A stretch of DNA of 64,000 nucleotides from Bacteroidales bacterium (lineage in GTDB: Bacteria; Bacteroidota; Bacteroidia; Bacteroidales; UBA10428). Numbering within the stretch: position 1 is the first letter of the stretch; every line of letters begins with the position of its first letter. Position numbers and translations under genes: made by a program. The DNA is taken from NCBI GenBank assembly GCA_016933335.1, contig JAFGBD010000025.1:1-64000 (forward strand), read 5' to 3'. The notes beneath the pieces were generated by a model. The model was not told the DNA's origin. It did not search any database and worked only from the letters and a program-made list of their open reading frames with translations. Positions 10,239 to 23,615 of the stretch are shown here, piece after piece.

Positions 10239-10271
10239 TTTGAAAATTCATTATTTATCAATATACCTTTG
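10239..10271 (+). promoter_or_regulatory. Bacteroidota-type promoter of the complex I-like operon
   Basis: TTTG at 10239-10242 and TACCTTTG at 10264-10271 match the Bacteroidota -33 TTTG and -7 TAnnTTTG elements with a 21-base spacer. Transcription would start near 10278, leaving about 50 bases of leader before the ATG at 10327. This argues against the longer reading of the first gene from 10240. Confidence 0.65.
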
Positions 10272-10326
10272 TGAAACAGATAACAATTGTTTATTATTCG
10301 CACAGGGTTTTTCAAAAATCAATTTA

Positions 10327-10848
10327 ATGAACAAACAAAAGCAGCATGAGAAGTATTCTGTAAGAAACTTTTTTTATTTGTTTATTATTCTCATGATTAT
10401 ATGGATGGCTCTTGCGTTGAGTTTGAATAAGCAGGAATTGTATACAGGAATTATAGTGAGTTTTGTTCTTTCCCTCGCATTATACAGGAGTTTTCAAATA
10501 ATAGGATTCCCAAAAGTCACTATCAGGAAGGTTGCTGCTCTCTGCATTTATATCATCGTCCTCTTCAAAGAAATAGTCATAGCCAATCTTGATGTAGCTT
10601 ATCGGGTTATACATCCGAAAATGCCTATAAAGCCGGGAATTGTTATCATTAAAACGGAGTTAAAGCAGGATCTGGCTAAAATGATTCTTGCCAATTCAAT
10701 TACCCTCACTCCGGGTACATTTACATTAAACATTGAGGAAGATCGCCTTTTAATTCACTGGATAAACGTAAAAACAGACGATATTGACGAAGCCACGCAA
10801 ATTATCGGAAAAAAATTTGAAAAATATCTGAAAATCATATTCAATTAA
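10327..10848 (+). CDS. mrpE: Mrp/Mnh antiporter subunit E-like protein (MbxA-like)
   Basis: 173 residues from MNKQKQHEKY; the upstream in-frame extension lies over the promoter. Two or three N-terminal membrane helices followed by a cytosolic domain with MILANSITLTPGTFTLNIE, the signature of MrpE/MnhE/MbhA. In Mbh/Mbx-type complexes this subunit is part of the ion-translocating membrane arm. It is separated from the other Mrp-type genes by a flavoprotein and an ArsR gene, an unusual arrangement. Confidence 0.9.
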   Translation: MNKQKQHEKYSVRNFFYLFIILMIIWMALALSLNKQELYTGIIVSFVLSLALYRSFQIIGFPKVTIRKVAALCIYIIVLFKEIVIANLDVAYRVIHPKMPIKPGIVIIKTELKQDLAKMILANSITLTPGTFTLNIEEDRLLIHWINVKTDDIDEATQIIGKKFEKYLKIIFN

Positions 10849-10863
10849 TCTTTTGAAATAATC

Positions 10864-12216
10864 ATGAAAAAGATGGGAAAGGAAATAGTTATTATTGGAG
10901 GAGGACCTGCCGGTGTAACAGCTGCCATTACGGCAAGAAGATACTACCCGGAGACAAATATTACTTTAATCCGTAAAGAAGAAAAAGCATTGATCCCATG
11001 TGGAATACCATACATGTTTGGAACTCTGGACTCGGCAGAGAAGAACCTGATTCCTGATCAGCTTCTTACAGGTAATAATATCAACCTGGTAATTGACGAG
11101 GCAAGTTCAATAGACAGAGATTCAGGAACCGTCATTACTTCAGCAGGTAAAAATTTTATTTACGATCGATTGATTCTTGCGTTAGGCTCATCTCCCTTGA
11201 TACCATCAATACCTGGGGTTGAACTAAATAATGTATATGCAGTCAGGAAGGATTTGGAATACCTTAAAGATCTGTCAAAAAAGCTGGATCAGTCAAAAGA
11301 TGTGGTAATAATCGGAGGAGGATTCATAGGGCTGGAATTTGCTGATGAATTTATGAAAAGAGGAAACCTGAAGGTTACAATTATTGAACTTCTTCCCCAT
11401 TGTTTGCTCCTTGCCTGTGACGAAGAGATTTGCAAACGCGTAGAAAACAAACTTTTAGAGAGAGGTGTGAATATCAATGTAGGGGCAAAGGCCGGAGCCA
11501 TTTCAGGCAAAAACCAGGTGGAGTATGTTGAATTGGAAAGCGGTGATAAGATTAAGGCAGATACTGTAATTCTGGGTATTGGGGTCAAACCGAATGTAAA
11601 TCTGGCGTTGGAATGCCACCTGGCTGCCGATGGAAGAGAGGGGATACAGGTAGATGATTTTATGCGGACCAGTGATGAAAATATATTCGCCATTGGTGAT
11701 TGCGCAAAGAAAAGGTGTTATTTAAGCGGACTGCCGAAAGGAGTCTGGCTGGCTTCTATGGGAACTACCGAAGCTCGAATTGCCGGTGCTAACCTTTTTA
11801 ATGTTCGCAGAAGGTCGGATTGTGCAATCGGCATCTTTTCTACCTGTTTTGGTGACTTGGCTGTTGGTTCAGCAGGACTAACCGAATCTGCAGCCAGAGA
11901 AATGGGAATGGATGTGGTAACAGGAGAATCTGTGGCTCCTGATAAACACCCTGGATCAATTCCCGGAGCTCAGGAATTGGGTATAAAACTGGTTTTTGAA
12001 AAGGATACTGGATTGCTGATAGGCGGACAAGTTTATGGTGGAGTATCGGTGGGTGAAAAGATCAACTTCATTGGAGCACTTATTCAACATAAAATGAGAG
12101 CTGATGAAGTATGTACCTTTCAAATGGGAACACACCCCCTTCTTACCGCTTCGCCTATTGCCTATCAGTTGATTAATGCAGCTCAGCTGGCCGTCATGAA
12201 ACTGAGAAAATCATAA
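10864..12216 (+). CDS. CoA-disulfide reductase / NAD(P)H sulfur oxidoreductase-like flavoprotein
   Basis: 450 residues. Two Rossmann motifs: FAD-binding IIGGGPAGVTAA (10-21) and NAD(P)-binding VVIIGGGFIGLEFADE near 143-158. The single redox cysteine C46 in IPCGIPY is that of CoA-disulfide reductase, NADH oxidase (Nox) and archaeal Nsr. Dimerisation domain at the C-terminus with FQMGTHPLLTASP. By family it reduces CoA-disulfides, persulfides or polysulfide, or O2, with NAD(P)H; which one is undecided. It sits 15 bases after mrpE, inside the operon for the Mbx-like complex, which favours sulfur or thiol redox. A paralog is at 38578. Confidence 0.85.
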   Translation: MKKMGKEIVIIGGGPAGVTAAITARRYYPETNITLIRKEEKALIPCGIPYMFGTLDSAEKNLIPDQLLTGNNINLVIDEASSIDRDSGTVITSAGKNFIYDRLILALGSSPLIPSIPGVELNNVYAVRKDLEYLKDLSKKLDQSKDVVIIGGGFIGLEFADEFMKRGNLKVTIIELLPHCLLLACDEEICKRVENKLLERGVNINVGAKAGAISGKNQVEYVELESGDKIKADTVILGIGVKPNVNLALECHLAADGREGIQVDDFMRTSDENIFAIGDCAKKRCYLSGLPKGVWLASMGTTEARIAGANLFNVRRRSDCAIGIFSTCFGDLAVGSAGLTESAAREMGMDVVTGESVAPDKHPGSIPGAQELGIKLVFEKDTGLLIGGQVYGGVSVGEKINFIGALIQHKMRADEVCTFQMGTHPLLTASPIAYQLINAAQLAVMKLRKS

Positions 12217-12240
12217 TGTTCGGAACAACCAGGATTATTG

Positions 12241-12510
12241 ATGAAAAAAAATTTTGAACAACTGGCAGATTGTATGAGAGCTTTAGGACATCCGATACGG
12301 TTGCAGATTGTGAAAGGTCTGATCAATAACGAATGCAACGTTACCCAGATTCAGCATAATTTAGGTATTCCGCAATCTACCATTTCCCAGCACCTGAAAG
12401 TTCTTAAAAATGCAGGAATTATTGAAAGCAGAAGAGAAGGAACAATGGTATGCTATAAAGTTATCGCTCATTGGGTCATAGAATTAATCACAGACATGCG
12501 AAAGAAATAA
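12241..12510 (+). CDS. ArsR-family winged-helix regulator
   Basis: 89 residues from the ATG at 12241 (the codon before is TTG, a possible but weaker start). Helix-turn-helix region IQHNLGIPQSTISQHLKVLK and wing ESRREGTMVCYKV. Three cysteines at 11, 32 and 71, none in a CxxC pair; C11 in LADCMRALGHP is at the site where several thiol- or sulfur-sensing ArsR proteins carry a Cys. No typical zinc-site His/Asp set was noticed. Between the flavoprotein and mrpF, so probably the local regulator of the operon. Confidence 0.9.
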   Translation: MKKNFEQLADCMRALGHPIRLQIVKGLINNECNVTQIQHNLGIPQSTISQHLKVLKNAGIIESRREGTMVCYKVIAHWVIELITDMRKK

Positions 12511-12577: not shown

Positions 12578-12829
12578 ATGACAACCTTGATTTTTATAAT
12601 TATCATCTGCATTGGAATTGTCCTCTGCATCATACGTATGGGGATTGGGCCTACAGCAGCAGACAGAGCAATCGCAGTGGATACAGCTACCACTGTTGTT
12701 GTTGCCTTGTTGGTATTACTCGGTTTTGTTTTTGACAGATATATATACCTGGATGTCGCTTTGGTTTATTCAATTGTCTCTTTTGTAGGATTAATAGCTA
12801 TTGCAAGATACTTAGAAAAAGGAATATAG
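12578..12829 (+). CDS. mrpF: Mrp subunit F-like protein (MbxB-like)
   Basis: 83 residues, three membrane helices, with the conserved RMGIGPTAADRAIAVDT stretch of MrpF/MnhF/MbhB. Part of the cation/proton-translocating module. One base separates its stop from the next start; the operon continues with overlaps. Confidence 0.9.
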   Translation: MTTLIFIIIICIGIVLCIIRMGIGPTAADRAIAVDTATTVVVALLVLLGFVFDRYIYLDVALVYSIVSFVGLIAIARYLEKGI

Positions 12830-12830
12830 T

Positions 12831-13157
12831 ATGGATATTTTCGGCATGATCATAACCGGTATTGGAGTTGTTTTTCTTTTCCTAGGCAGTTTGGGTATCC
12901 TCAGGATGCCGGATGTCTATAACAGGGTCCAGGTAGGAACGAAATGCACCACATTGGGTAATTTTTTAACCATTATCGGAGTTGGAATCATGCAACCGGA
13001 ATGGTTCTGGAAGACATTAATCATCGCGATATTTGTGCTTGTATCCAATCCTGTTTCAAGCCATGCACTAGGGAGAGCTGCCAGAAAGAACGGGATTTCA
13101 TTATGCGATAAAAGCATTGTGGATAAAACGGAAGAATTTAAAGAACATACTGAGTAA
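12831..13157 (+). CDS. mrpG: Mrp subunit G-like protein (MbxC-like)
   Basis: 108 residues, three membrane helices, with LGILRMPDVYNRVQVGTKCT and the PVSSHALGRAA motif, both diagnostic for MrpG/MnhG/MbhC. Membrane-arm subunit of the complex. Confidence 0.9.
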   Translation: MDIFGMIITGIGVVFLFLGSLGILRMPDVYNRVQVGTKCTTLGNFLTIIGVGIMQPEWFWKTLIIAIFVLVSNPVSSHALGRAARKNGISLCDKSIVDKTEEFKEHTE

Positions 13158-13159
13158 AT

Positions 13160-13399
13160 ATGGAAATAGTTATACTTATACTCGTCTTTCTTATGATTGT
13201 TTCGGCAATAGCAGCACTCATTTTTAAAGATTTGATGAATGCAGTAATTGCTTCTTGTGTAGTAAGTCTAATTGCAGCTGTTTTGTTTTATTTTCTTCAG
13301 GCACCCGATGTAGCCATGGCTGAAGCAGCTATTGGTGCTGCATTGGTAACGGGAATTTTTGTTATTGCTGTTAAAAGAACCAAAAGATTTGAAGAATGA
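13160..13399 (+). CDS. MbhD/MrpA C-terminal-like subunit
   Basis: 79 residues, three helices, with LMNAVIASCVVSLIAAVLFY and APDVAMAEAAIGAAL, the MbhD signature that also forms the C-terminal part of large MrpA. Stop overlaps the next start by four bases. Confidence 0.88.
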   Translation: MEIVILILVFLMIVSAIAALIFKDLMNAVIASCVVSLIAAVLFYFLQAPDVAMAEAAIGAALVTGIFVIAVKRTKRFEE

Positions 13400-14082
13400 G
13401 AAAGCTGATTAGCCTGATATTATTGGTAATAATTGCCGGAGGCATTGTATTATCATTAAAAGAAATACCTTTCGGTATTTCGAAAATAAAAATTGGTGAT
13501 TATTATATTAAAAAAGGAATAGAAGAAACGGGAGCCACAAACATTGTGACTTCAGTAGTGGTCAGTTACCGTGGATTTGATACATTGGGCGAAATTACCA
13601 TATTGTTTACTGCAGCCATAGGTTTATCAGCTGTTTTGGGTACCTACAGAAAGAGAAAAGCCGGTGAAAAAGTGGAACCGCCAAGTTTCATTGTTAAAAC
13701 CGGGTGCCGGTTTTTATTTCCAATTCTTCTTCTTGTTGGCGCCTACATCTTTATACACGGACATCTTACTCCCGGAGGCGGATTTCAGGGCGGGGCAATT
13801 ATTGCCTCTGCTTTCCTTCTCATGTATCTTGGATGCGAAGGAAAAAGGATCAATGAAAACACAAGCATAGTCGTTGAAGTTTTGGGGGCCTTAACATTTA
13901 TTGTATTAGGAATAATAGGCCTGACAATCGGAAAAGATTTTCTTTTCAATTTTTTACCCAAAGGAGAACCCAATACTCTGTTAAGTGCGGGTATTATTCC
14001 TGTCATATATATCGCGATCGGATTTAAAGTCGGTTCGGAATTAGCAGGCATTATTGATCACTTAATAGAGAAAAACCAATGA
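13396..14082 (+). CDS. mrpB: MbhE plus MrpB/MbhF-like fused membrane subunit
   Basis: 228 residues. The first 80 (IVTSVVVSYRGFDTLGEITI then an AAIGLSAVLG helix) are MbhE-like; the rest, with GHLTPGGGFQGGAIIASAF, is MrpB/MnhB/MbhF. In Mbh the two are separate genes; here they are one chain, as is also reported for Mbx-type clusters. Overlaps both neighbours by four bases. Confidence 0.88.
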   Translation: MRKLISLILLVIIAGGIVLSLKEIPFGISKIKIGDYYIKKGIEETGATNIVTSVVVSYRGFDTLGEITILFTAAIGLSAVLGTYRKRKAGEKVEPPSFIVKTGCRFLFPILLLVGAYIFIHGHLTPGGGFQGGAIIASAFLLMYLGCEGKRINENTSIVVEVLGALTFIVLGIIGLTIGKDFLFNFLPKGEPNTLLSAGIIPVIYIAIGFKVGSELAGIIDHLIEKNQ

Positions 14083-14438
14083 ATTTTTTAAGTGAATACA
14101 TCTATTATATTGGTGCTTTCAGCCTCATTTTTATTGGTTTGTTTATTGTACTGGCCAAAAAGAATCTGATCAAAGTTATTATTGGATTAAGTATTGTTGA
14201 TACAGGAATAAACCTGTTTCTTATCACCCTTGGCTATATCAGAGGAGGAACGGCTCCTGTATTTTCAAAACCGGGCCTGAAAGCGGAGAATATGGTTGAT
14301 CCGGTTCCGCAGGCCTTAGTTTTGACTGCCATTGTAATCGGAGTAGCTGTACTGGCCCTGGCACTGACTTTAGCTATCAAATTATACAAACATTACGGCA
14401 CCCTTAATCTGCGTAAAATAAAAGAACAAAAATGGTAA
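14079..14438 (+). CDS. mrpC: Mrp subunit C / NuoK-like protein (MbxG-like)
   Basis: 119 residues, three helices. IVDTGINLFLITLGYIRGG and DPVPQALVLTAIVIGVAVLA are typical of MrpC/NuoK, with the conserved acidic residue in the middle helix. Overlaps the next gene by seven bases. Confidence 0.92.
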   Translation: MNFLSEYIYYIGAFSLIFIGLFIVLAKKNLIKVIIGLSIVDTGINLFLITLGYIRGGTAPVFSKPGLKAENMVDPVPQALVLTAIVIGVAVLALALTLAIKLYKHYGTLNLRKIKEQKW

Positions 14439-15907
14439 ACCCGATACTCTTAATTGTCATACCATTAGGTCTTGCATTTGTTGTTCCGCTTTTCAGATTT
14501 ATTTCGAAGAAAATCGAAAAGTTTATTCCTTTTTTTGCCTTGCTCGCAAATCTTATCATATCCCTGACACTTTTTCCTCATGTTTTGGAAAAACCCATTC
14601 ATGTTTCCATAGGAGGTTTCCTTCCTCCCCTGGGCATTAATCTTGTTGCAGGACCGCTGGGAATTTTATTTGCCATGCTTATAGCACTGGTTGGTTTCCT
14701 GGTTTCGATTTATGCATTTGCTTATATAAAAGAAAAGGATCAGGAAAAATACCATATACTTTATCTGCTTTTACTAACCGGCGCTACGGGAGTGGTTCTT
14801 ACCGGCGACATATTCAACCTCTTTGTTTTTTTTGAAATTCTTTGTATTTCTTCTTATTCTCTGGTAGCTTATTTCGGAGATAAGCCCGGTATCGAATCTG
14901 CCGTAAAGTATCTCATTCAGGGGGCTGTTGGATCGAGTTTGGTACTTATTGGTATAGGTTTGCTTTATGGTCAGTTCGGAACACTTAATATGGCTGATAT
15001 TGCCAGCAATATCCATTCGGTTCATTCCATTTCAGTTTTTATACCGTTGGTTTTGTTAATTACCGGCTTTGGGGTCGAAGCAGCAATTTTCCCTCTCAAT
15101 GCCTGGTTGCCGGATGCACACTCTTCTGCTCCTTCATCCATAAGTGCCATTTTATCAGGAATAGCCATTGAAGTGGGCCTCTATGCAATTGTGAGAGTTG
15201 TGTTTACTTTATTTGGAGCTTCAAGTATCCTGACCTTCCTGTTATTTTTAGGGGTGATCACATTATTGATTGGTGAATTATGTGCTTTCAACCAGGAAAA
15301 CATCAAAAGAATGCTTGCCTATTCAAGTATAGGACAAATCGGCCTCATAGTGTTTGCCTTATCAATCGGTTCACTTTCCGGGATAAACGGGGGATTATTT
15401 CAACTGGTGAGTCATACGCTTTCAAAGGCTTTGTTGTTCCTGGCCGCAGGATACATGATATTCCGTAGCGGTTCGATGAATATTTCTTCGTTCGAAGGCA
15501 TGGGAAAAAAAATGCCTTATACTTCATTCGCTTTTACAATTGGTGCTTTCTCTATCGTAGGATTACCTCCATTCATAGGCTTTCCGGGTAAATTTATGAT
15601 ACTGAAAGCGGCATTATTCGAACAGGATATCTTGTTTACAATACTTGTTTTTCTCATCCTGCTGGCAACCATCATCGAGGGAGCCTATTTCTTCAGGGTA
15701 GTGCAGACTATTTATTTTAAAGGTGAAAAAAGCACCCCTGGCCAGGAACGGGAGATCGCCCCATTAAGTGTTTTAATACCTGTATTCATTTTTGTGGGAC
15801 TGATAGTGGTGATAGGAATATATCCAAAGCTGATAACAGAGATACTGGAATCATCCGCTTCAGAATTATTGAACAGAGCTGATTATATAAAAAACATTCT
15901 GCCATGA
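14432..15907 (+). CDS. mrpD: MrpD/MbxH-like proton-conducting subunit with Glu in place of two channel Lys
   Basis: 491 residues, about 14 helices. The conserved Glu of helix 5 is present (E135 in FFEILCISSY). In the following half-channel the usual Lys of GxxxKxAxFPLH is Glu (E216 in GFGVEAAIFPLN) and the Lys of LSxxxxKxGxY is also Glu (E247 in SGIAIEVGLY). The sister subunit at 15904 keeps both Lys. This may reflect a subfamily with different ion chemistry. Four-base overlap with the next gene. Confidence 0.9.
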   Translation: MVNPILLIVIPLGLAFVVPLFRFISKKIEKFIPFFALLANLIISLTLFPHVLEKPIHVSIGGFLPPLGINLVAGPLGILFAMLIALVGFLVSIYAFAYIKEKDQEKYHILYLLLLTGATGVVLTGDIFNLFVFFEILCISSYSLVAYFGDKPGIESAVKYLIQGAVGSSLVLIGIGLLYGQFGTLNMADIASNIHSVHSISVFIPLVLLITGFGVEAAIFPLNAWLPDAHSSAPSSISAILSGIAIEVGLYAIVRVVFTLFGASSILTFLLFLGVITLLIGELCAFNQENIKRMLAYSSIGQIGLIVFALSIGSLSGINGGLFQLVSHTLSKALLFLAAGYMIFRSGSMNISSFEGMGKKMPYTSFAFTIGAFSIVGLPPFIGFPGKFMILKAALFEQDILFTILVFLILLATIIEGAYFFRVVQTIYFKGEKSTPGQEREIAPLSVLIPVFIFVGLIVVIGIYPKLITEILESSASELLNRADYIKNILP

Positions 15908-17760
15908 ATCTGAGTATTATACTCGCAATTGCTTTTGGTGGTGCTTTATTAACTTATTTTTCAGGAAAAATATCGAAAAAGGCAAGGGATGTTTTAGCTG
16001 TACTGATTTCCCTGGTTATAGCAGTTATTCTTGCTTTCTTTTATAATACTTCTTCCCGGGAGATTTTTTATACAGGATTTTTAGATTTTCCACTTATTTT
16101 AAGAATAGACACATTTTCATGGTTTTTTGCTTTTACCATTGCTGTTATAGGTTCATTCTCAATAATTTTCTCCTTAAGTTATATAAGAAAAAAAGGAAAC
16201 ACAGACTATTACTACACCATGATGTTGCTGGTCATTGCAAGTATGATAGGAATTATATTGTCCGGCGACCTGGTATCATTCTATATATTCTGGGAAATTA
16301 TGTCATGGAGCACATTTCTTCTTATAAGCTACAATCGTGGCCCCGCGATTGCCGCCGGAATAAAGTACATCATAATGTCTGTGACTGGTTCTGTGGCAAT
16401 GCTTGTCGGTATTATTTCGTTGTATTCACATTACGGTACGGTAATATATACAGAACTCTCCGGACTTCTTTATAATGCTTCATCAGGATATACAATATTC
16501 ATTTTTGTTCTGTTTTTTATCGCACTGGGAATTAAGAATGCCATATGGCCACTTCATGTCTGGCTCCCTCCGGCACATTCAGAAGCGCCCTCTCCGTTCA
16601 GCGCTGTTCTTTCCGGCACCCTGATAAAAATAGGCACTTACGGTATCATTTTGTTGATATATGTAATTGTCAAAATCAATGTTTTTCTGAATCTGGGTGA
16701 AGGTATCGTAAGCGCCCGTTATATAATTGCCGTTACCGGAGCCATTACAATCCTCATTCCCACTTTTATTGCCCTGCTCCAGGATGATGCCAAAAGACTT
16801 CTTGCCTGGTCCACTATCGCACAGGCGGGGTATATCATTTTAGGAATTGCTTATGGTACAAGCGAAAGTGTGGCCAGTGGCATGTTTCACTTTTTTAACC
16901 ATGCCATTTTTAAAGCTCTTCTTTTTATGGTTGTCGGGGCAGTTGAATACCGGACAAACGGAGTAAGGGACCTGAATTCACTCGGAGGCTTAATTAAAAA
17001 AATGCCTGTCACTTTTGTTGGTGGATTGATTGGTATTTGCGGACTGATAGGGGTACCGTTAACGAACGGATTTGTTTCAAAATGGCTGATTTATAAAACG
17101 TTGATAATTAATAACTCTCCCTTCCTTGCATTTGCTGCATTATTGGGTACCTGGGGAACCATATTGTACAGTTATAAATTACTGCATAATATGTTCCTGG
17201 GTCAGCTGCCTGAAAAATACGAAAAGTTGGAAAGAGCCCCATTTTCTATGCAATTGCCAATTGTGATTCTTTCGCTTGCAATCATACTGTTTGGTATTCT
17301 TCCCGGATTACCGCTTAAGGTTATTAACTCCATTGAATCGGGTTTTGGTCTGGAACCTTTAACGATAAATATATGGGGAATTACCTCGGATACAGGTACA
17401 ATAAATATGCTTAACCTGTTCGTTGCTGTCTTTTTAATTGGTATAATGATATGGTTGATATTCAAAGGAAGTAAAAAATCAGCAGGAATTGGTCAGTACG
17501 ACAACTATGCCGCCGGAACAACAGTTCCGAAGAATAAATACCACTATTCAGTTGATTTTTATGGTCCTCTGCACAGAATGATCAGTCCGTATCTGAGAGA
17601 TTTCATCGATGATTTTTACATGAGCCTTGCACGGAGCATTAAAAATCTGGGCAATGGAATACGACGAATTTATACAGGAGATGTCGGATATTATGCAATA
17701 TATATCATGCTGTTTCTTGCATTATTAATTTTTATTCAAATAAAATGGAAGTTATGGTAA
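15904..17760 (+). CDS. NuoL/MbxH'-like proton-conducting subunit
   Basis: 618 residues, about 14 core helices plus a C-terminal extension ending in a further helix (YAIYIMLFLALLIFI). Channel Lys present in GIKNAIWPLHVWLPP and SGTLIKIGTYG; Glu in FYIFWEIMSWS. A second antiporter-like subunit after the MrpD type, as in mbx (H and H'). The stop TAA overlaps the ATG of the NuoH-like gene by one base. Confidence 0.9.
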   Translation: MNLSIILAIAFGGALLTYFSGKISKKARDVLAVLISLVIAVILAFFYNTSSREIFYTGFLDFPLILRIDTFSWFFAFTIAVIGSFSIIFSLSYIRKKGNTDYYYTMMLLVIASMIGIILSGDLVSFYIFWEIMSWSTFLLISYNRGPAIAAGIKYIIMSVTGSVAMLVGIISLYSHYGTVIYTELSGLLYNASSGYTIFIFVLFFIALGIKNAIWPLHVWLPPAHSEAPSPFSAVLSGTLIKIGTYGIILLIYVIVKINVFLNLGEGIVSARYIIAVTGAITILIPTFIALLQDDAKRLLAWSTIAQAGYIILGIAYGTSESVASGMFHFFNHAIFKALLFMVVGAVEYRTNGVRDLNSLGGLIKKMPVTFVGGLIGICGLIGVPLTNGFVSKWLIYKTLIINNSPFLAFAALLGTWGTILYSYKLLHNMFLGQLPEKYEKLERAPFSMQLPIVILSLAIILFGILPGLPLKVINSIESGFGLEPLTINIWGITSDTGTINMLNLFVAVFLIGIMIWLIFKGSKKSAGIGQYDNYAAGTTVPKNKYHYSVDFYGPLHRMISPYLRDFIDDFYMSLARSIKNLGNGIRRIYTGDVGYYAIYIMLFLALLIFIQIKWKLW

Positions 17761-18659
17761 TGACTACTATACTCGAAATCATATTCATCATTTTGTTGGC
17801 AGGTATCATCGGACTGTTTTTTCTTGGATTATCAAGAAAAATAATGGCAAGAATTCACTGGCGTTACGGGCCACCTATCACTCAGCCGCTTATAGATATC
17901 ATCAAACTGTTCAATCAGACAAGCATGAGTCATGGGTTCTTATTTAATTTCGGAATCATTTTCTCTCTGGCAGGCTCTGTTGTTGTGCTGTTATTTCTTC
18001 CTTTTGGAAGAATATGCCCTTTAAGCGACTCGGGAGGATTGCTTGTTATCCTTTACCTCATGCTTATTGCCCCTTTAGGATTGGCACTGAGTGGTGGTGA
18101 AGCCGCCAATCCCTATACAAGTATCGGAATATCCAGGAAGTTGCTGTTAGCCTTTGGTTATGAGCTTCCCCTATTGCTTATTCTTCTAACTGTAATGACA
18201 CATTATAATACCATTTCCATTGTTGAAATAGTCAACAAACAATTCCAGGCAGGATGGTCTTTTCAGCACCTTTCTTTGCTTTTGCCAGGCATTGCTTATA
18301 TTTTAATCCTTCCTGCCATATTGGGTTTCCGGCCTTTTGAATTGATCCAGGCACCGCAGGAAATTTCATCGGGGCCTATGGCCGAATACAGTGGTAAATT
18401 TTTGGCACTCACAACCATACAACATGCTTTTAATATATTTATCAGCATATCCCTTTTTACAAATCTATTTTTGGGAGGAGCTGCAAATCCGGGATATTTC
18501 TTTTTAAAAATACTCGCAGTATTTGTTATTTTTCTTTTTGCTAATGCTGTTTTTCCGCGCTTCAGAATAGAGCAGGCCATCAAATACCTGTGGAGATGGC
18601 CAAGTATACTGGCATTTGCAGGGTTGATTATTGTTTTAATAACCGGTAAGAATTTTTAA
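17760..18659 (+). CDS. NuoH/HyfC-like membrane anchor subunit (MbxM-like)
   Basis: 299 residues from the ATG at 17760, which overlaps the previous stop as TAATG; upstream in-frame ATGs at 17745 and 17754 are alternatives. Eight or so helices with ARIHWRYGPPITQPLIDIIK, SGGEAANPYTSIGISRK and PFELIQAPQEISSGPMAEYS, the conserved cytosolic loops that contact the peripheral arm and line the quinone-cavity region in complex I. Confidence 0.92.
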   Translation: MTTILEIIFIILLAGIIGLFFLGLSRKIMARIHWRYGPPITQPLIDIIKLFNQTSMSHGFLFNFGIIFSLAGSVVVLLFLPFGRICPLSDSGGLLVILYLMLIAPLGLALSGGEAANPYTSIGISRKLLLAFGYELPLLLILLTVMTHYNTISIVEIVNKQFQAGWSFQHLSLLLPGIAYILILPAILGFRPFELIQAPQEISSGPMAEYSGKFLALTTIQHAFNIFISISLFTNLFLGGAANPGYFFLKILAVFVIFLFANAVFPRFRIEQAIKYLWRWPSILAFAGLIIVLITGKNF

Positions 18660-18671
18660 AACTGATTGGAT

Positions 18672-19250
18672 ATGGATAGGAACAATCTAGGTAAATGGCT
18701 CAAATCGCCGGGCAAAATGGGACAAAAGTATTCGCTCCATGCCTTGTATTTTTGTACGGGTTGCGGAATCATTGAAATACCTCCAAGTATAACAACACGC
18801 TGGGATGCGGAGAGGTTTGGTGTAATTCCTGTTGCCACACCCAGGCAGGCAAACCTGTTTTTAATCACAGGATATGTTTCTGTTAAAACTTTAAGATATA
18901 TTATCCGTTCCTACGAACAGATGCCCGAGCCCAAGTTTACCGTCGGATTCGGATCATGTCCGATTAACGGGGGAATGTACTGGGACTCCTATAACACCAT
19001 TAAGCATCTGGACAAATATATTCCTGTTGACGGCTGGATTGCAGGATGTATGCCCAGGCCCGAAGCCGTGTTTGTTGCTGTAACCCATTTGTGGACATTA
19101 ATTGACAAGGGAATGGCAGATGGCTATAATAAGTACAGGGCTAATTATCAATATTACAGGGAAAACCAGGAAAAAATTCTGGGGAAACTGGAATGGCCGC
19201 CATTGTTTTCAAAAAATATAAAACATGAAGAATACAGGACAATTGCTTAA
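18672..19250 (+). CDS. NuoB-like Fe-S subunit (MbxJ-like)
   Basis: 192 residues from ATG 18672. The proximal cluster ligands are C28, C31 (FCTGCGIIE), C96 (GFGSCPINGG) and C126 (AGCMPRPE). A C-x2-C spacing for the first pair is the hydrogenase/Mbx form; true NuoB has adjacent cysteines. Passes electrons between the Fe-S chain and the NuoD-like subunit. Overlaps the NuoC-like gene by 26 bases. Confidence 0.92.
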   Translation: MDRNNLGKWLKSPGKMGQKYSLHALYFCTGCGIIEIPPSITTRWDAERFGVIPVATPRQANLFLITGYVSVKTLRYIIRSYEQMPEPKFTVGFGSCPINGGMYWDSYNTIKHLDKYIPVDGWIAGCMPRPEAVFVAVTHLWTLIDKGMADGYNKYRANYQYYRENQEKILGKLEWPPLFSKNIKHEEYRTIA

Positions 19251-19743
19251 GGAAAAACTGTTATTGTCATTTGAAGATATTCAGGCAGAGGTTTCTGATG
19301 AACACAGGCTGACTGTCAATTGCAGGAAAGATACGGTTATTACAGTGTTAAGTTTCCTGAATAACAGTGGATATGATCACCTGGCGCTCATATCCTGTGT
19401 AGACTGGATAAAAGATAATGTATTGGAACTTGTATATATTCTTACAGCATATGCCGAAGACAAAGGTAAAGCAAAAATGAATATACTGGTTAAAACAAGA
19501 ATAACAAGGGAAAAACCAGGATTGCACACGGTTATTCCTGTTTTTGAAAATGCCGAACCCTATGAACGCGAATTGCACGAGCTTTATGGTATACATTTTA
19601 TGGGCCACCCGAGATTAACGCCGCTTTTCCTTGAAAGGGAATATAAAATACCTCCGTTCAGGAAAGACTTTGATACACGAAAATATGTACAGGAAGTTTT
19701 TGATCAGATTCCTTTTGTTGAAGACAAAAAAGCGGAAAAATGA
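19225..19743 (+). CDS. NuoC (30 kDa)-like subunit (MbxK-like)
   Basis: 172 residues. ERELHELYGIHFMGHPRLTP and YKIPPFRKDF form the 30 kDa-subunit signature. No cofactor; structural partner of the NuoB/NuoD-like pair. Overlaps the next gene by four bases. Confidence 0.92.
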   Translation: MKNTGQLLKEKLLLSFEDIQAEVSDEHRLTVNCRKDTVITVLSFLNNSGYDHLALISCVDWIKDNVLELVYILTAYAEDKGKAKMNILVKTRITREKPGLHTVIPVFENAEPYERELHELYGIHFMGHPRLTPLFLEREYKIPPFRKDFDTRKYVQEVFDQIPFVEDKKAEK

Positions 19744-20837
19744 GAGAACTTGAACTATATTTTGGTCCGCAGCATCTCGGGATGGTAGGTAATTTCAGCA
19801 TTACCTTAAATGTTGAAGGAGACCGTATTGTCAAGGCAACTGCCAATCCCGGATTTCTTCATCGCGGCTTCGAAAAGCTCATGGAACAGCGGACATGGAT
19901 ACAGAATTTTCCTTTGGTCTGCCGGATTAATGTTGTGGAACCTGATCATATGGAATTGATGTATGCCATGGCAGTTGAAAAATTAGCCGGTATTGAGGTT
20001 CCAGAAAGAGCCCGGTTTATAAGAAGCATTTACCTCGAGCTTGCCAGGATCGGTTCTCACTTGTTTGGTTTATGGGCTTATGCCAATATGCTGGGATTCG
20101 ATACAGTGGCCAACTGGGCAATGTATCACCGCGATCTGGTACTGGATCTTTTTGAAGAACTTACGGGAGGCAGGGTTTATCACATATACATCTGGCCAGG
20201 CGGTGTACGGCGTGATTTCCCGGAAGGATTTAAGGATAGAATAATAAATACATTACATACCATCGGAAGTTGTGTACCCGATTATGATAACACATTTTTT
20301 AACAACCGTGTATTTTACAAGCGTGCCAAAAACATAGGAAAAATAACATGCGAAGAAGCAAAAAGGATGGGTGCTGTCGGACAGGTGCTCAGAGCTACCG
20401 GCATGAAACAGGATATCCGGAAAACAGAACCCTATGCAGCCTATGATCAGGTAGACTGGGAAATTCCCGTAAGAACTGACGGAGATGCTTACTCACGAAT
20501 CTGGGTTGTACGGGATGAAATGATTGAAAGCGTCCACATGATATTCAAATTGCTGGATAAAATGCCGGAAGGGGAAGTCTATAACAAGATTCCCAATCCC
20601 TTTAAATGGAAGATTCCGGATAAAGATGCTTATGTGAGATGCGAATCATCGAGAGGTGAACTGGGGCTTTATCTGGTGAGCAACGGCGGGGATAAACCAT
20701 ACAGGGCACACTTTAGGACGCCATCCTATAATCATGGTTTGACCATTTTGGAAAAAGCGCTTGAAAATGAAAGCATTGCCGATGTAGGCAATATCATGAT
20801 CAGTTTATATATAACAGCTCCGGAAATTGACCGGTAA
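19740..20837 (+). CDS. NuoD (49 kDa)-like subunit lacking [NiFe] ligands (MbxL-like)
   Basis: 365 residues. GPQHLGMVGNFSITLNVEGD and NPGFLHRGFEKLMEQR mark the family. Group 4 hydrogenases carry two CxxC motifs that bind the Ni-Fe site. Here the first reads LVCRINVVEPDHM, with one Cys (C61), and the C-terminus reads LYITAPEIDR, with none. So it is not a hydrogenase. The enzyme could reduce sulfane sulfur as in MBS, or simply link the Fe-S chain to the membrane arm. Followed after 18 bases by the fusion gene. Confidence 0.9.
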   Translation: MRELELYFGPQHLGMVGNFSITLNVEGDRIVKATANPGFLHRGFEKLMEQRTWIQNFPLVCRINVVEPDHMELMYAMAVEKLAGIEVPERARFIRSIYLELARIGSHLFGLWAYANMLGFDTVANWAMYHRDLVLDLFEELTGGRVYHIYIWPGGVRRDFPEGFKDRIINTLHTIGSCVPDYDNTFFNNRVFYKRAKNIGKITCEEAKRMGAVGQVLRATGMKQDIRKTEPYAAYDQVDWEIPVRTDGDAYSRIWVVRDEMIESVHMIFKLLDKMPEGEVYNKIPNPFKWKIPDKDAYVRCESSRGELGLYLVSNGGDKPYRAHFRTPSYNHGLTILEKALENESIADVGNIMISLYITAPEIDR

Positions 20838-20855: not shown

Positions 20856-22706
20856 ATGACAGGCAACAGTATTCTGAGCCCTTTTAATGCAGTTAAATAT
20901 CTTTTTGTTAAACCAAAGACAATCCGGTATCCTTTTGAACCAAAAGAACCTGCTCAAAGGTACAGGGGATTTCATGTGAACGATTGGGAAAAATGCACAG
21001 GCTGTGGCAATTGTGCAGATATTTGTCCCAACCAGGCCATTCAAATGATAAAAATGCCTGAACTGGAATCCAAATCGGGTCAAAAAAATGAACGGCCCCG
21101 GTTGGATTACGGCAGATGCTGTTTTTGCGGATTATGTGTTGATATATGTCCTCCAGGTTCACTGAAACTTACGAGGGATTATTTTCATATTCATTTTGAC
21201 CCGAAAACCTTTGTGTTTATTCCCAAGGACCAAAAAACAGAACCCGGAAAATATATGTCTGCTGAAGATTATTCTGTTCTGAAAGCAAGCTTATCGCATC
21301 GTAAAAAAGATTATGAAGGCTTTGTTTCTGATCTTAAGTTTGCTTTATTTGAACCCGATAGAGTCACAATGCCCATGATTGATCCTGATGTACGGAAACT
21401 TTCATTTATTGAGCAGGTAGTGGGTTATAACCCGGAAGAAGCAAAGAAAGAAGCCTCCCGCTGTCTGGAATGCAGACTATGTGAAGAGGCGTGCCCGGCA
21501 CATCTGAAAATCTCCGATTATATACAGGCAATATATGAAGATAAACCGGAGGAATCCCTGAAAAAAATCTATGAAGACAATCCTATCCCTTCAATTTGTG
21601 GAAGAGTTTGTATGGCCTATTGCGAGCAGGCTTGTTCATTGAGCATCAGGGGAGAAGCGCTGTCAGTAAGATGGCTTAAAAGATATGCAGCCGATACAAT
21701 CAAAGATTTTATAACAGCCCTGGAATTAAAGCCGGGTACATCTACCGGAAAAAAGATTGCTGTCATCGGCGCTGGTCCGGGTGGTTTATCCGTGGCTTAT
21801 TTTCTCCGGTTAAAAGGACATGAGGTCAATGTATACGATGCTTTACCCGGGGGCGGAGGAACAATGAGAACCGGTCCGCCTGTCTACAGGTTGCCGCTGG
21901 AAAGCATTGATAAAGATGTTAATTATATAAGATCCCTGGGCGTTGAATTCATATTCAACACCCGTATAGGTAAAGATGTATTTTTTGAAGATCTTCTGAA
22001 AGAATATGATGCTGTTTTTCTTGGAACAGGAAATACAAAGAGTCGTTCCACCAAAGTTAAAAATTATGAAAAATGCGAACTGGCCTTCGACTTTCTGAGT
22101 GATAATAAAATTGGGAAGCAACGGAAGGTTGGAAAAGAAATAATAGTCATTGGAGGTGGAAATGTAGCTCTCGATGTTGCCCGGGAAGCATTGCGATTGC
22201 AAAATATACAATATCCCGGTGAAAATATTGCTGTTAAAACCGTTTCACTTGAAGACTGGCATGAAATGCCGGCAACAAAAGAGGAGATAGAAGAGGCCAA
22301 AGAAGAAAAAATCCAGTTCAATCCTGCCTGGGGACCTAAAGAAGTGGTGTTGGATAATGATGGGAATGTTAAAGGCCTTTTGTGCAAAAAAGTGAAATCG
22401 GTATTTGACAAGGAGGGCAGATTTGCTCCCACTTTTTATGAAGAAAATGAAATGTTTCTGGAAGGGGATATGATCATTGAGGCTGTTGGTCAGGCTCCTG
22501 ATTTTTCATTTATACCTGAAAACCTTTTTGAAAAACTTGAATTTACAGAAAGAAAAAAAGTAAAAGTAGATGAAAAGGGAATGACATCAATCCGGAAGGT
22601 TTTTGCCGGAGGGGATATTGTAAATGTTAACCTTGATGCGGTTACAGCCATAGCAGATGCAAAAGTTGCTTCTGTGGGCATAGATGCATTCCTGTCCGGA
22701 AAATAA
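20856..22706 (+). CDS. NuoI-like ferredoxin subunit fused to GltD/NfnB-like NAD(P)H oxidoreductase
   Basis: 616 residues in one frame with a strong ribosome site (GGAGG before ATG). Residues 1-115 are NuoI/MbxN-like with two [4Fe-4S] motifs (C47-C50-C53-C57 and C88-C91-C94-C98). Residues 195-265 match the GltD/NfnB N-terminus (C203-C206-C209-C213 and C248-C252-C256-C260). Then an FAD Rossmann motif (VIGAGPGG, 303-310), an NAD(P)H Rossmann motif (VIGGGNVALD, 431-440) and the final FAD segment AGGDIVNVNLDAVTAIADA. It would give the complex its own NAD(P)H site and four clusters leading to the NuoB-like subunit. Direction of electron flow is unknown. Confidence 0.92.
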   Translation: MTGNSILSPFNAVKYLFVKPKTIRYPFEPKEPAQRYRGFHVNDWEKCTGCGNCADICPNQAIQMIKMPELESKSGQKNERPRLDYGRCCFCGLCVDICPPGSLKLTRDYFHIHFDPKTFVFIPKDQKTEPGKYMSAEDYSVLKASLSHRKKDYEGFVSDLKFALFEPDRVTMPMIDPDVRKLSFIEQVVGYNPEEAKKEASRCLECRLCEEACPAHLKISDYIQAIYEDKPEESLKKIYEDNPIPSICGRVCMAYCEQACSLSIRGEALSVRWLKRYAADTIKDFITALELKPGTSTGKKIAVIGAGPGGLSVAYFLRLKGHEVNVYDALPGGGGTMRTGPPVYRLPLESIDKDVNYIRSLGVEFIFNTRIGKDVFFEDLLKEYDAVFLGTGNTKSRSTKVKNYEKCELAFDFLSDNKIGKQRKVGKEIIVIGGGNVALDVAREALRLQNIQYPGENIAVKTVSLEDWHEMPATKEEIEEAKEEKIQFNPAWGPKEVVLDNDGNVKGLLCKKVKSVFDKEGRFAPTFYEENEMFLEGDMIIEAVGQAPDFSFIPENLFEKLEFTERKKVKVDEKGMTSIRKVFAGGDIVNVNLDAVTAIADAKVASVGIDAFLSGK

Positions 22707-22730: not shown

Positions 22731-23615
22731 ATGAGAGAATTAATTGGTGTGAAACAAAATTCAAAATCGCTTTCATTATTTTTCACATACCACAATAAAA
22801 AGGGTATCTTTATTTTATATGCTACAATATTTATCATGGGCCTTTTTTCTTTTTGTGCAGACAAAGACAAGGCGGAAAAAGCATCTCCTTTTTTTGTTGA
22901 ATCTGAAACCGAAAAACCGGAAATCGTTTTAATTTCTGTTTATGATAACTACATGGTAAATCCGGAACTAAAAACTTCATGGGGTTTTGCATGCGTTATA
23001 GAAACACCGGCAGAAAAATTATTGTTCGATACTGGAGGTGATCCTGTGATTTTGCTTTCCAATATGCAAAAAATGAATATTGATCCCGGGTCAATTGACA
23101 AAGTAATTATTTCTCATGTTCATGGAGATCATGCAGGCGGTTTAGAAGGATTTTTAGAAAAGAATAATGATGTTACCGTGTTTATCCCGGCTTCCTTTCC
23201 AGGTTCGATTAAAAATATGATCATCAATGAAGGAGCTGGATTTATAGTGATCTCTGAGGCTAAAAAAATTTCTGATTTTATATATTCTACCGGAGAACTT
23301 GAAGGCCCTCCCCAAGAGCAATCTATAATAATAGATTCGAAAAAAGGATTAATCGTGATTACCGGTTGTGCTCATCCCGGAATTGTAAAGATTGTAGAAA
23401 AGGCCAAACAACTGATGGAAAAAGACAGCTTATATCTTGTAACAGGAGGTTTCCATAATCCTCCCATGGCTGTGGTTAAAAAGTTCAGAGCACTTGGAGT
23501 AAAAAAAGTTGCACCGTCACATTGCACGGGTGATCGCGTCAGGGAGGCATTTTCACAAGAATATAAAGAAGATTTCATAGAATACGGAGTAGGGAGAAGA
23601 ATTGAGATAAAATAA
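22731..23615 (+). CDS. Exported MBL-fold hydrolase, likely lipoprotein
   Basis: 294 residues. After a basic N-terminus there is one hydrophobic helix (IFILYATIFIMGLFSF) ending in Cys, a plausible lipobox. Metal-binding motif SHVHGDHAGG, then TGCAHPGI and a late TGGFH and PSHCTGDR, as in the MBL group related to dihydropterin-methyl-aminobenzene phosphate synthase. It lies 24 bases after the fusion gene, so probably the last gene of the operon. A cytosolic paralog is at 40609. Substrate unknown. Confidence 0.82.
   Translation: MRELIGVKQNSKSLSLFFTYHNKKGIFILYATIFIMGLFSFCADKDKAEKASPFFVESETEKPEIVLISVYDNYMVNPELKTSWGFACVIETPAEKLLFDTGGDPVILLSNMQKMNIDPGSIDKVIISHVHGDHAGGLEGFLEKNNDVTVFIPASFPGSIKNMIINEGAGFIVISEAKKISDFIYSTGELEGPPQEQSIIIDSKKGLIVITGCAHPGIVKIVEKAKQLMEKDSLYLVTGGFHNPPMAVVKKFRALGVKKVAPSHCTGDRVREAFSQEYKEDFIEYGVGRRIEIK

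Follow-up and report, generated by a model that had tools for sequence, protein, structure and literature searches.

The closest relative of solved structure for the core of the complex considered here is the MBS/MBX complex of P. furiosus (6u8y). Its proximal cluster is held by three cysteine ligands of MbsJ (C28, C93 and C123) with C25 non-ligating; the C25A and C85A/C385A mutants retain activity, and it has neither of the quinone ligands H38 and Y87 (PMC7684303). A 'dehydrogenase-linked MBX' was described in 2010 in Thermosphaera aggregans and its relatives, where an MBX-type operon includes a SudA/GltD-like gene and was proposed to pass electrons from NADPH to sulfur or protons (PMC3035292). 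In T. maritima, mbxA is up 4.4-fold with sulfur together with nsr, and MBX is modelled there as ferredoxin-dependent (PMC9431562).

The window, a stretch of 64,000 nucleotides from a Bacteroidales bacterium, contains an operon that shares some features with each of several known systems and differs from each in others. It shares with P. furiosus MBS the subunit set with two antiporter-like subunits, a three-cysteine proximal cluster (predicted in the window) and the lack of quinone ligands, although MBS subunit N carries no NAD(P)H module, whereas its counterpart in the window is a fusion protein with a GltD-like domain. The T. aggregans sudA is an operon gene replacing fdhA, while in the window the corresponding domain is fused covalently to the NuoI-like subunit and is predicted to be of NADH type. 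This C-terminal half has the fold of the NfnL, GltD and StnC-NfnABC flavoproteins, but it has no NfnS partner or GltB, is joined to a complex-I-family subunit and has the YRR motif replaced. Respiratory complex I likewise shares NuoBCDHI and antiporter-like subunits with the window, although the latter lacks NuoEFG and the quinone ligands and has an Mrp-type membrane arm and an MBS-type NuoB motif.

The operon and its fusion gene

The predicted genes, all on the forward (+) strand, are:

10240..10848, +, MnhE-like subunit (NCBIfam TIGR00942, below its cut-off)
10864..12216, +, CoA-disulfide-reductase/NSR-like flavoprotein (TIGR03385, below cut-off)
12238..12510, +, ArsR-family regulator (NF033788, above cut-off)
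12578..12829, +, MnhF-like subunit (gene order conserved)
12831..13157, +, MnhG-like subunit (gene order conserved)
13160..13399, +, MbhD-like small membrane protein of 79 aa (open reading frame, position and sequence by eye)
13396..14082, +, MbhE+MnhB-like subunit (Pfam MnhB and MbhE)
14079..14438, +, MnhC/NuoK-like subunit (position and sequence; order conserved across loci)
14432..15907, +, MnhD-like antiporter-like subunit (Proton_antipo_M)
15904..17760, +, second antiporter-like subunit in the MbsH' position (Proton_antipo_M; PRK08668 over its full length, below cut-off)
17745..18659, +, NuoH-like membrane anchor (Pfam NADHdh)
18666..19250, +, NuoB/MbsJ-like subunit with the MBS-type proximal cluster motif FCTGCGxIExPP
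19225..19743, +, NuoC-like subunit (Pfam Complex1_30kDa)
19740..20837, +, NuoD/MbsL-like large subunit lacking both quinone ligands and [NiFe] cysteine motifs
20856..22706, +, NuoI-like/GltD(NfnL)-like fusion protein of 616 aa (intact open reading frame, ATG to stop)

Within the fusion gene the following motifs are located:

20994..21026, +, NuoI-type [4Fe-4S] motif 1, C47-x2-C50-x2-C53-x3-C57 (invariant in 85/85)
21117..21149, +, NuoI-type [4Fe-4S] motif 2, C88/C91/C94/C98 (invariant in 85/85)
21462..21494, +, GltD-type cluster motif 1, C203/C206/C209/C213 (invariant in 85/85; Pfam Fer4_20 at residues 183-283)
21597..21635, +, GltD-type cluster motif 2, C248/C252/C256/C260 (invariant in 85/85)
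21768..21785, +, FAD-binding GAGPGG, residues 305-310 (Pyr_redox_2 at 300-600; G305, G307 and G310 invariant)
22152..22169, +, NAD(P)H-binding GGGNVA, residues 433-438 (G433-G435, V437 and A438 invariant)
22245..22253, +, S464-L465-E466 at the YRR position of NfnL structures (alignment to NADP(H)-bound 5jca_L)

The core genes are ordered MnhE-F-G, MbhD-like, MbhE+MnhB, MnhC, MnhD, second MnhD-type, NuoH-B-C-D, with the fusion last, and the window thus has the gene set of an MBS/MBX operon (MnhE/F/G/B/C, two MnhD-type subunits, and NuoH, B, C, D and I). The fusion is the final core gene, after NuoD, in nearly all loci with enough flanking sequence; the exception is L058, where antiporter genes lie downstream of it. 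The operon lacks any NuoE/F/G-like gene, as expected from the proposal in the earlier note that the peripheral arm carries its own NAD(P)H module with no NuoE/F/G. NuoE-family genes are found in 40 of 48 genomes that carry the fusion, but because this family includes hydrogenase subunits the count carries no weight in the argument.

The fusion protein consists of a NuoI-like region (residues ~4-125; Pfam, NCBIfam) and a GltD region (residues ~168-616), the latter combining a Fer4_20 domain with FAD and nucleotide Rossmann folds as in NfnL and GltD. The structure that AlphaFold2 predicts from 44 aligned sequences of the window and the loci has a mean pLDDT of 89 and a pTM of 0.84, with the linker mostly at pLDDT 65-90, and Foldseek matches its C-terminal part to NfnL (5jca_L; TM 0.87 by target), GltD and dihydropyrimidine dehydrogenase; the C-terminal half is 36% identical to 5jca_L. 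All 16 ligand cysteines, as well as C89, are invariant in the alignment of 85 full-length fusion proteins, in agreement with the two NuoI-type clusters, two GltD-type clusters, and FAD and NAD(P)H sites noted previously.

A frameshift or assembly artefact joining two genes is refuted and its probability is practically nil: the sister genome (G001) has an intact fusion frame at 87-88% identity within the same operon, about 80 others also have the intact frame, a catalogued family (NF010590/PRK13984) spans the full length, and no point speaks in favour of an artefact. The one continuous frame reported earlier is therefore real.

Two genes lie between MnhE and MnhF in the window. The best PDB matches of the NSR-like flavoprotein are CoA-disulfide and CoA-persulfide reductases, and a gene of this type has the same location in L040. 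The ArsR gene scores 62.5 bits against the BigR model, below its cut-off of 155. The ArsR gene is kept in the sister genome. The NSR-like gene is missing from it, so the local link to sulfur through this neighbour is weak. In four relatives of the window clade (L032, L033, L036 and L037) a gene of the Rex family, assigned on one member by Pfam PF06971 and PF02629, is situated directly upstream on the same strand. Rex proteins are NADH-responsive repressors, and this position fits NADH-linked regulation.

In the window a metallo-beta-lactamase-fold protein is encoded directly after the fusion (22731-23615), but is probably not part of the system since it is absent from that place in the sister genome. 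A two-CBS-domain protein (cluster c1) follows the fusion in 14 loci, including L033, L040, L052, L064, L066-L068, L080, L085, L087, L089 and L093, and is possibly a nucleotide-sensing regulator of the complex. Spirochaetota-type fusions (L046, L047, L050, L058, L079, L084, L092 and L104) have an extra C-terminal extension of ~145 aa that is helical in appearance and has no Pfam match in L050; a separate rubrerythrin-like gene (cluster c5) follows the fusion in six loci other than these.

Nucleotide site, family and genomic distribution

In NfnL-type structures, 5jca_L with bound NADP(H) among them, the nucleotide fold has YRR where its second strand ends. At this position the window has SLE, and the family (n=85) has predominantly SLE (62), CLE (15) or ALE (6). 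YRR itself is restricted to L011 and L107, two divergent members that group together in the tree, their shared stem measuring 1.75 changes per column. The loss of the arginines and the gain of a glutamate suggest that the fusion prefers NADH, a prediction from the motif. The nucleotide site claimed in the earlier note is thus present, but its 'NAD(P)H' can be narrowed to NADH as the probable cofactor, the YRR motif being replaced in 83 of the 85 proteins.

The same note knew of no described fusion, but the architecture is already catalogued. NCBIfam NF010590 (PRK13984, 'putative oxidoreductase') aligns with residues 3-615 of the fusion over positions 8-608 of 611, and among the control genomes its sole match, above cut-off, is in Thermotoga maritima, where this member is presumably part of the mbx operon. 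The window protein scores 711 bits, under the curated equivalog cut-off of 946, and is therefore classed as a relative outside the NF010590 equivalog. A scan of genome contigs recovered 80 full-length or near-full-length relatives of 41-76% identity in ~17-20 phylum-level groups. They include the isolates Halanaerobium kushneri, H. saccharolyticum, Prolixibacter denitrificans and P. bellariivorans; two archaeal-labelled matches sit on contigs of less than 5 kb and may be misbinned. In L078 (9989-11662 of a Marinilabiliales contig) the fusion is broken into three reading-frame pieces, which could reflect either sequencing errors or decay of the gene. Full-text searches of mostly open-access literature brought up no paper on the fusion or its role and no experiment on a complex that contains it, and the term 'PRK13984' does not occur in the full texts searched. 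The fusion thus belongs to a family that is catalogued and widespread and apparently uncharacterised. The functional idea is also not new, as an NADPH-dehydrogenase-linked MBX with a separate gene was proposed in 2010; what is added here is how widely the covalent fusion occurs, its SLE motif, and the finding that many natural complexes have lost the fourth proximal-cluster cysteine (see below).

Of 392 sampled genomes from the phylum of the window, only five match at E<=1e-100, two of them, the window included, over the full length. In the tree the window and its sister genome group with Cloacimonadota and Neomarinimicrobiota (starred clade, 97), while other members of the window's own order and family carry Bacteroidota-type fusions placed away from this clade, and this placement points to lateral acquisition of the fusion.

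On C77 the host genome also encodes a separate Mbh operon, whose NuoI is of the ordinary, unfused kind and whose large subunit reads RVCGICSTSH. The same cluster (L111, L112) holds HydABC-like genes, a soluble [NiFe] hydrogenase with maturation genes and, as read by eye, two Rex-like genes. In five loci of the window clade (L026, L028, L029, L031 and L040) an Mbh-type [NiFe] operon or its first genes are located downstream of the fusion operon, and where the Mbh-type large subunit is reached it reads RxCGICSxSH. Rnf genes are present in 43 of 48 fusion genomes, including the host, and in 52 of 60 relatives in general. This co-occurrence rules out the fusion as a replacement for Rnf, and there is no enrichment over the background.

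The MBS-like core

The NuoB-, NuoD- and NuoI-like parts are all closest to MBS, which bears out the kinship with mbx-type clusters suggested earlier; the NuoB and NuoD partners are thus of MBS type and not of complex-I type. The best PDB match of the NuoB-like subunit is 6u8y_J (218 bits; next 120), that of the NuoD-like subunit is 6u8y_L (338 bits; next 234), and that of the NuoI-like part is 6u8y_N. In the NuoB-like subunit C33, C98 and C128 are invariant in 52 of 52 sequences, and at C30, the equivalent of MbsJ C25, 22 of them have Cys and the other 30 Gly; Gly is also found in the YRR-type locus L113. An MBS-type proximal [4Fe-4S] site with three cysteine ligands is predicted in this subunit.

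The NuoD-like subunit has His at the Nqo4 H38 position in two of 76 sequences and Tyr at the Y87 position in none of the 76, the window having V and L respectively. The equivalents of MbsL C85 and C385, present in P. furiosus, are lost in the window (N and T), and both [NiFe] CxxC motifs that mark Group 4 (Mbh) enzymes are missing. The complex I signatures, a tandem CC in NuoB and H38/Y87 in NuoD, are likewise lacking. With the H38/Y87 and C85/C385 equivalents gone, no quinone site of known type is predicted in the core from these residues, nor any known type of [NiFe] site; it is MBS/MBX-like and not complex I.

Proposed function and alternatives

The fusion is proposed to be the NADH-input subunit of an ion-pumping MBS/MBX-type complex whose electron acceptor is polysulfide or a comparable non-quinone compound, and we consider the chances that this is correct to be about even. 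The electron input of the complex would be a GltD/NfnL-type NADH dehydrogenase that is built onto the NuoI-like subunit. Electrons would pass from NADH to the FAD of the GltD-like domain, and from there along four [4Fe-4S] clusters, two of GltD type followed by two of NuoI type, before reaching the three-cysteine cluster of the NuoB-like subunit, where polysulfide/sulfane or a comparable small non-quinone acceptor would be reduced; the NuoH- and antiporter-like subunits would couple this electron transfer to ion export. Reduced ferredoxin is probably a second donor at the NuoI clusters, as for the N-subunit clusters of MBS, and the complex may act as a reversible NADH/ferredoxin/sulfane junction.

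The energetics constrain this scheme, because the redox drop from NADH to polysulfide is small and provides too little energy for much pumping, making either ferredoxin input at the NuoI clusters or a confurcating flavin likely. A full flavin-based electron-confurcating/bifurcating pump, with NADH at the GltD-type FAD, ferredoxin at the NuoI clusters and sulfane reduced at the three-cysteine cluster, is a more speculative version that we regard as rather unlikely.

Among the alternatives, an Rnf-like ion-pumping ferredoxin:NAD(P)+ oxidoreductase, or its reversal as a gradient-driven NAD(P)H:ferredoxin enzyme, is possible but doubtful. Ferredoxin would then react at the NuoI-like clusters and NAD(P) at the GltD domain, leaving the NuoB/NuoD chamber a purely coupling role. 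Mbx of P. furiosus and of Thermoanaerobacter was initially proposed to work in this way (PMC3608648; PMC2678158). Electron transfer from ferredoxin to NAD+ is favourable in free energy, and NfnL relatives exchange electrons with ferredoxin. However, such a path bypasses the proximal cluster, the coupling site of the superfamily, and yet the MBS-type site is fully conserved; moreover, most fusion genomes already have Rnf, and the host has its separate Mbh with unfused NuoI. The two roles raised in the earlier note therefore fare differently: NAD(P)H:sulfur oxidoreduction is the better supported, by the three-cysteine cluster and the lack of quinone ligands, and an NAD(P)H:ferredoxin pump fits less well because a catalytic-type cluster is conserved and because Rnf and the plain-NuoI Mbh cover ferredoxin.

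Two further readings are each improbable. The Nuo-type order of subunits and the menA gene of the host would suit a complex-I-like NADH:quinone oxidoreductase in which NuoEFG is swapped for the GltD module, but the equivalents of Nqo4 H38 and Y87 are missing, NuoB has no tandem CC, and MBS is by far the closest relative; the scarcity of menA, above cut-off in 11 of 48 fusion genomes, is a weak point against quinone use, as the futalosine route was outside the search. The GltD domain might instead serve a separate cytosolic reaction, for example with a dihydroorotate-dehydrogenase-like neighbour, the complex acting as an anchor or ferredoxin acceptor. A DHO_dh-family gene indeed follows the fusion in 23 loci, mostly of Bacteroidota (e.g. 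L008, L009, L052, L061 and L069), and dihydropyrimidine dehydrogenase is a relative in fold, but this gene is missing in the window and in most loci outside the Bacteroidota, it scores 31 bits against DHO_dh, and the operon core is conserved without it. The fusion and its distant DHO_dh-family neighbour together recall dihydropyrimidine dehydrogenase in parts.

If the NADH-input reading is right, NADH oxidation joined a complex-I-family pump at least twice, by the unrelated modules NuoEFG and GltD/NfnL, and a confurcating pump, if true, would be an NADH module in the complex-I superfamily that is independent of and parallel to NuoEFG. The family also offers a natural test of the MBS mechanism, with more than half of the complexes examined lacking the fourth proximal-cluster cysteine. 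On the NADH-input reading, a large group of anaerobes, among them Halanaerobium, Prolixibacter, Spirochaetota, Cloacimonadota and Thermotoga, would possess an NADH-linked pump that is catalogued only as a 'putative oxidoreductase'.
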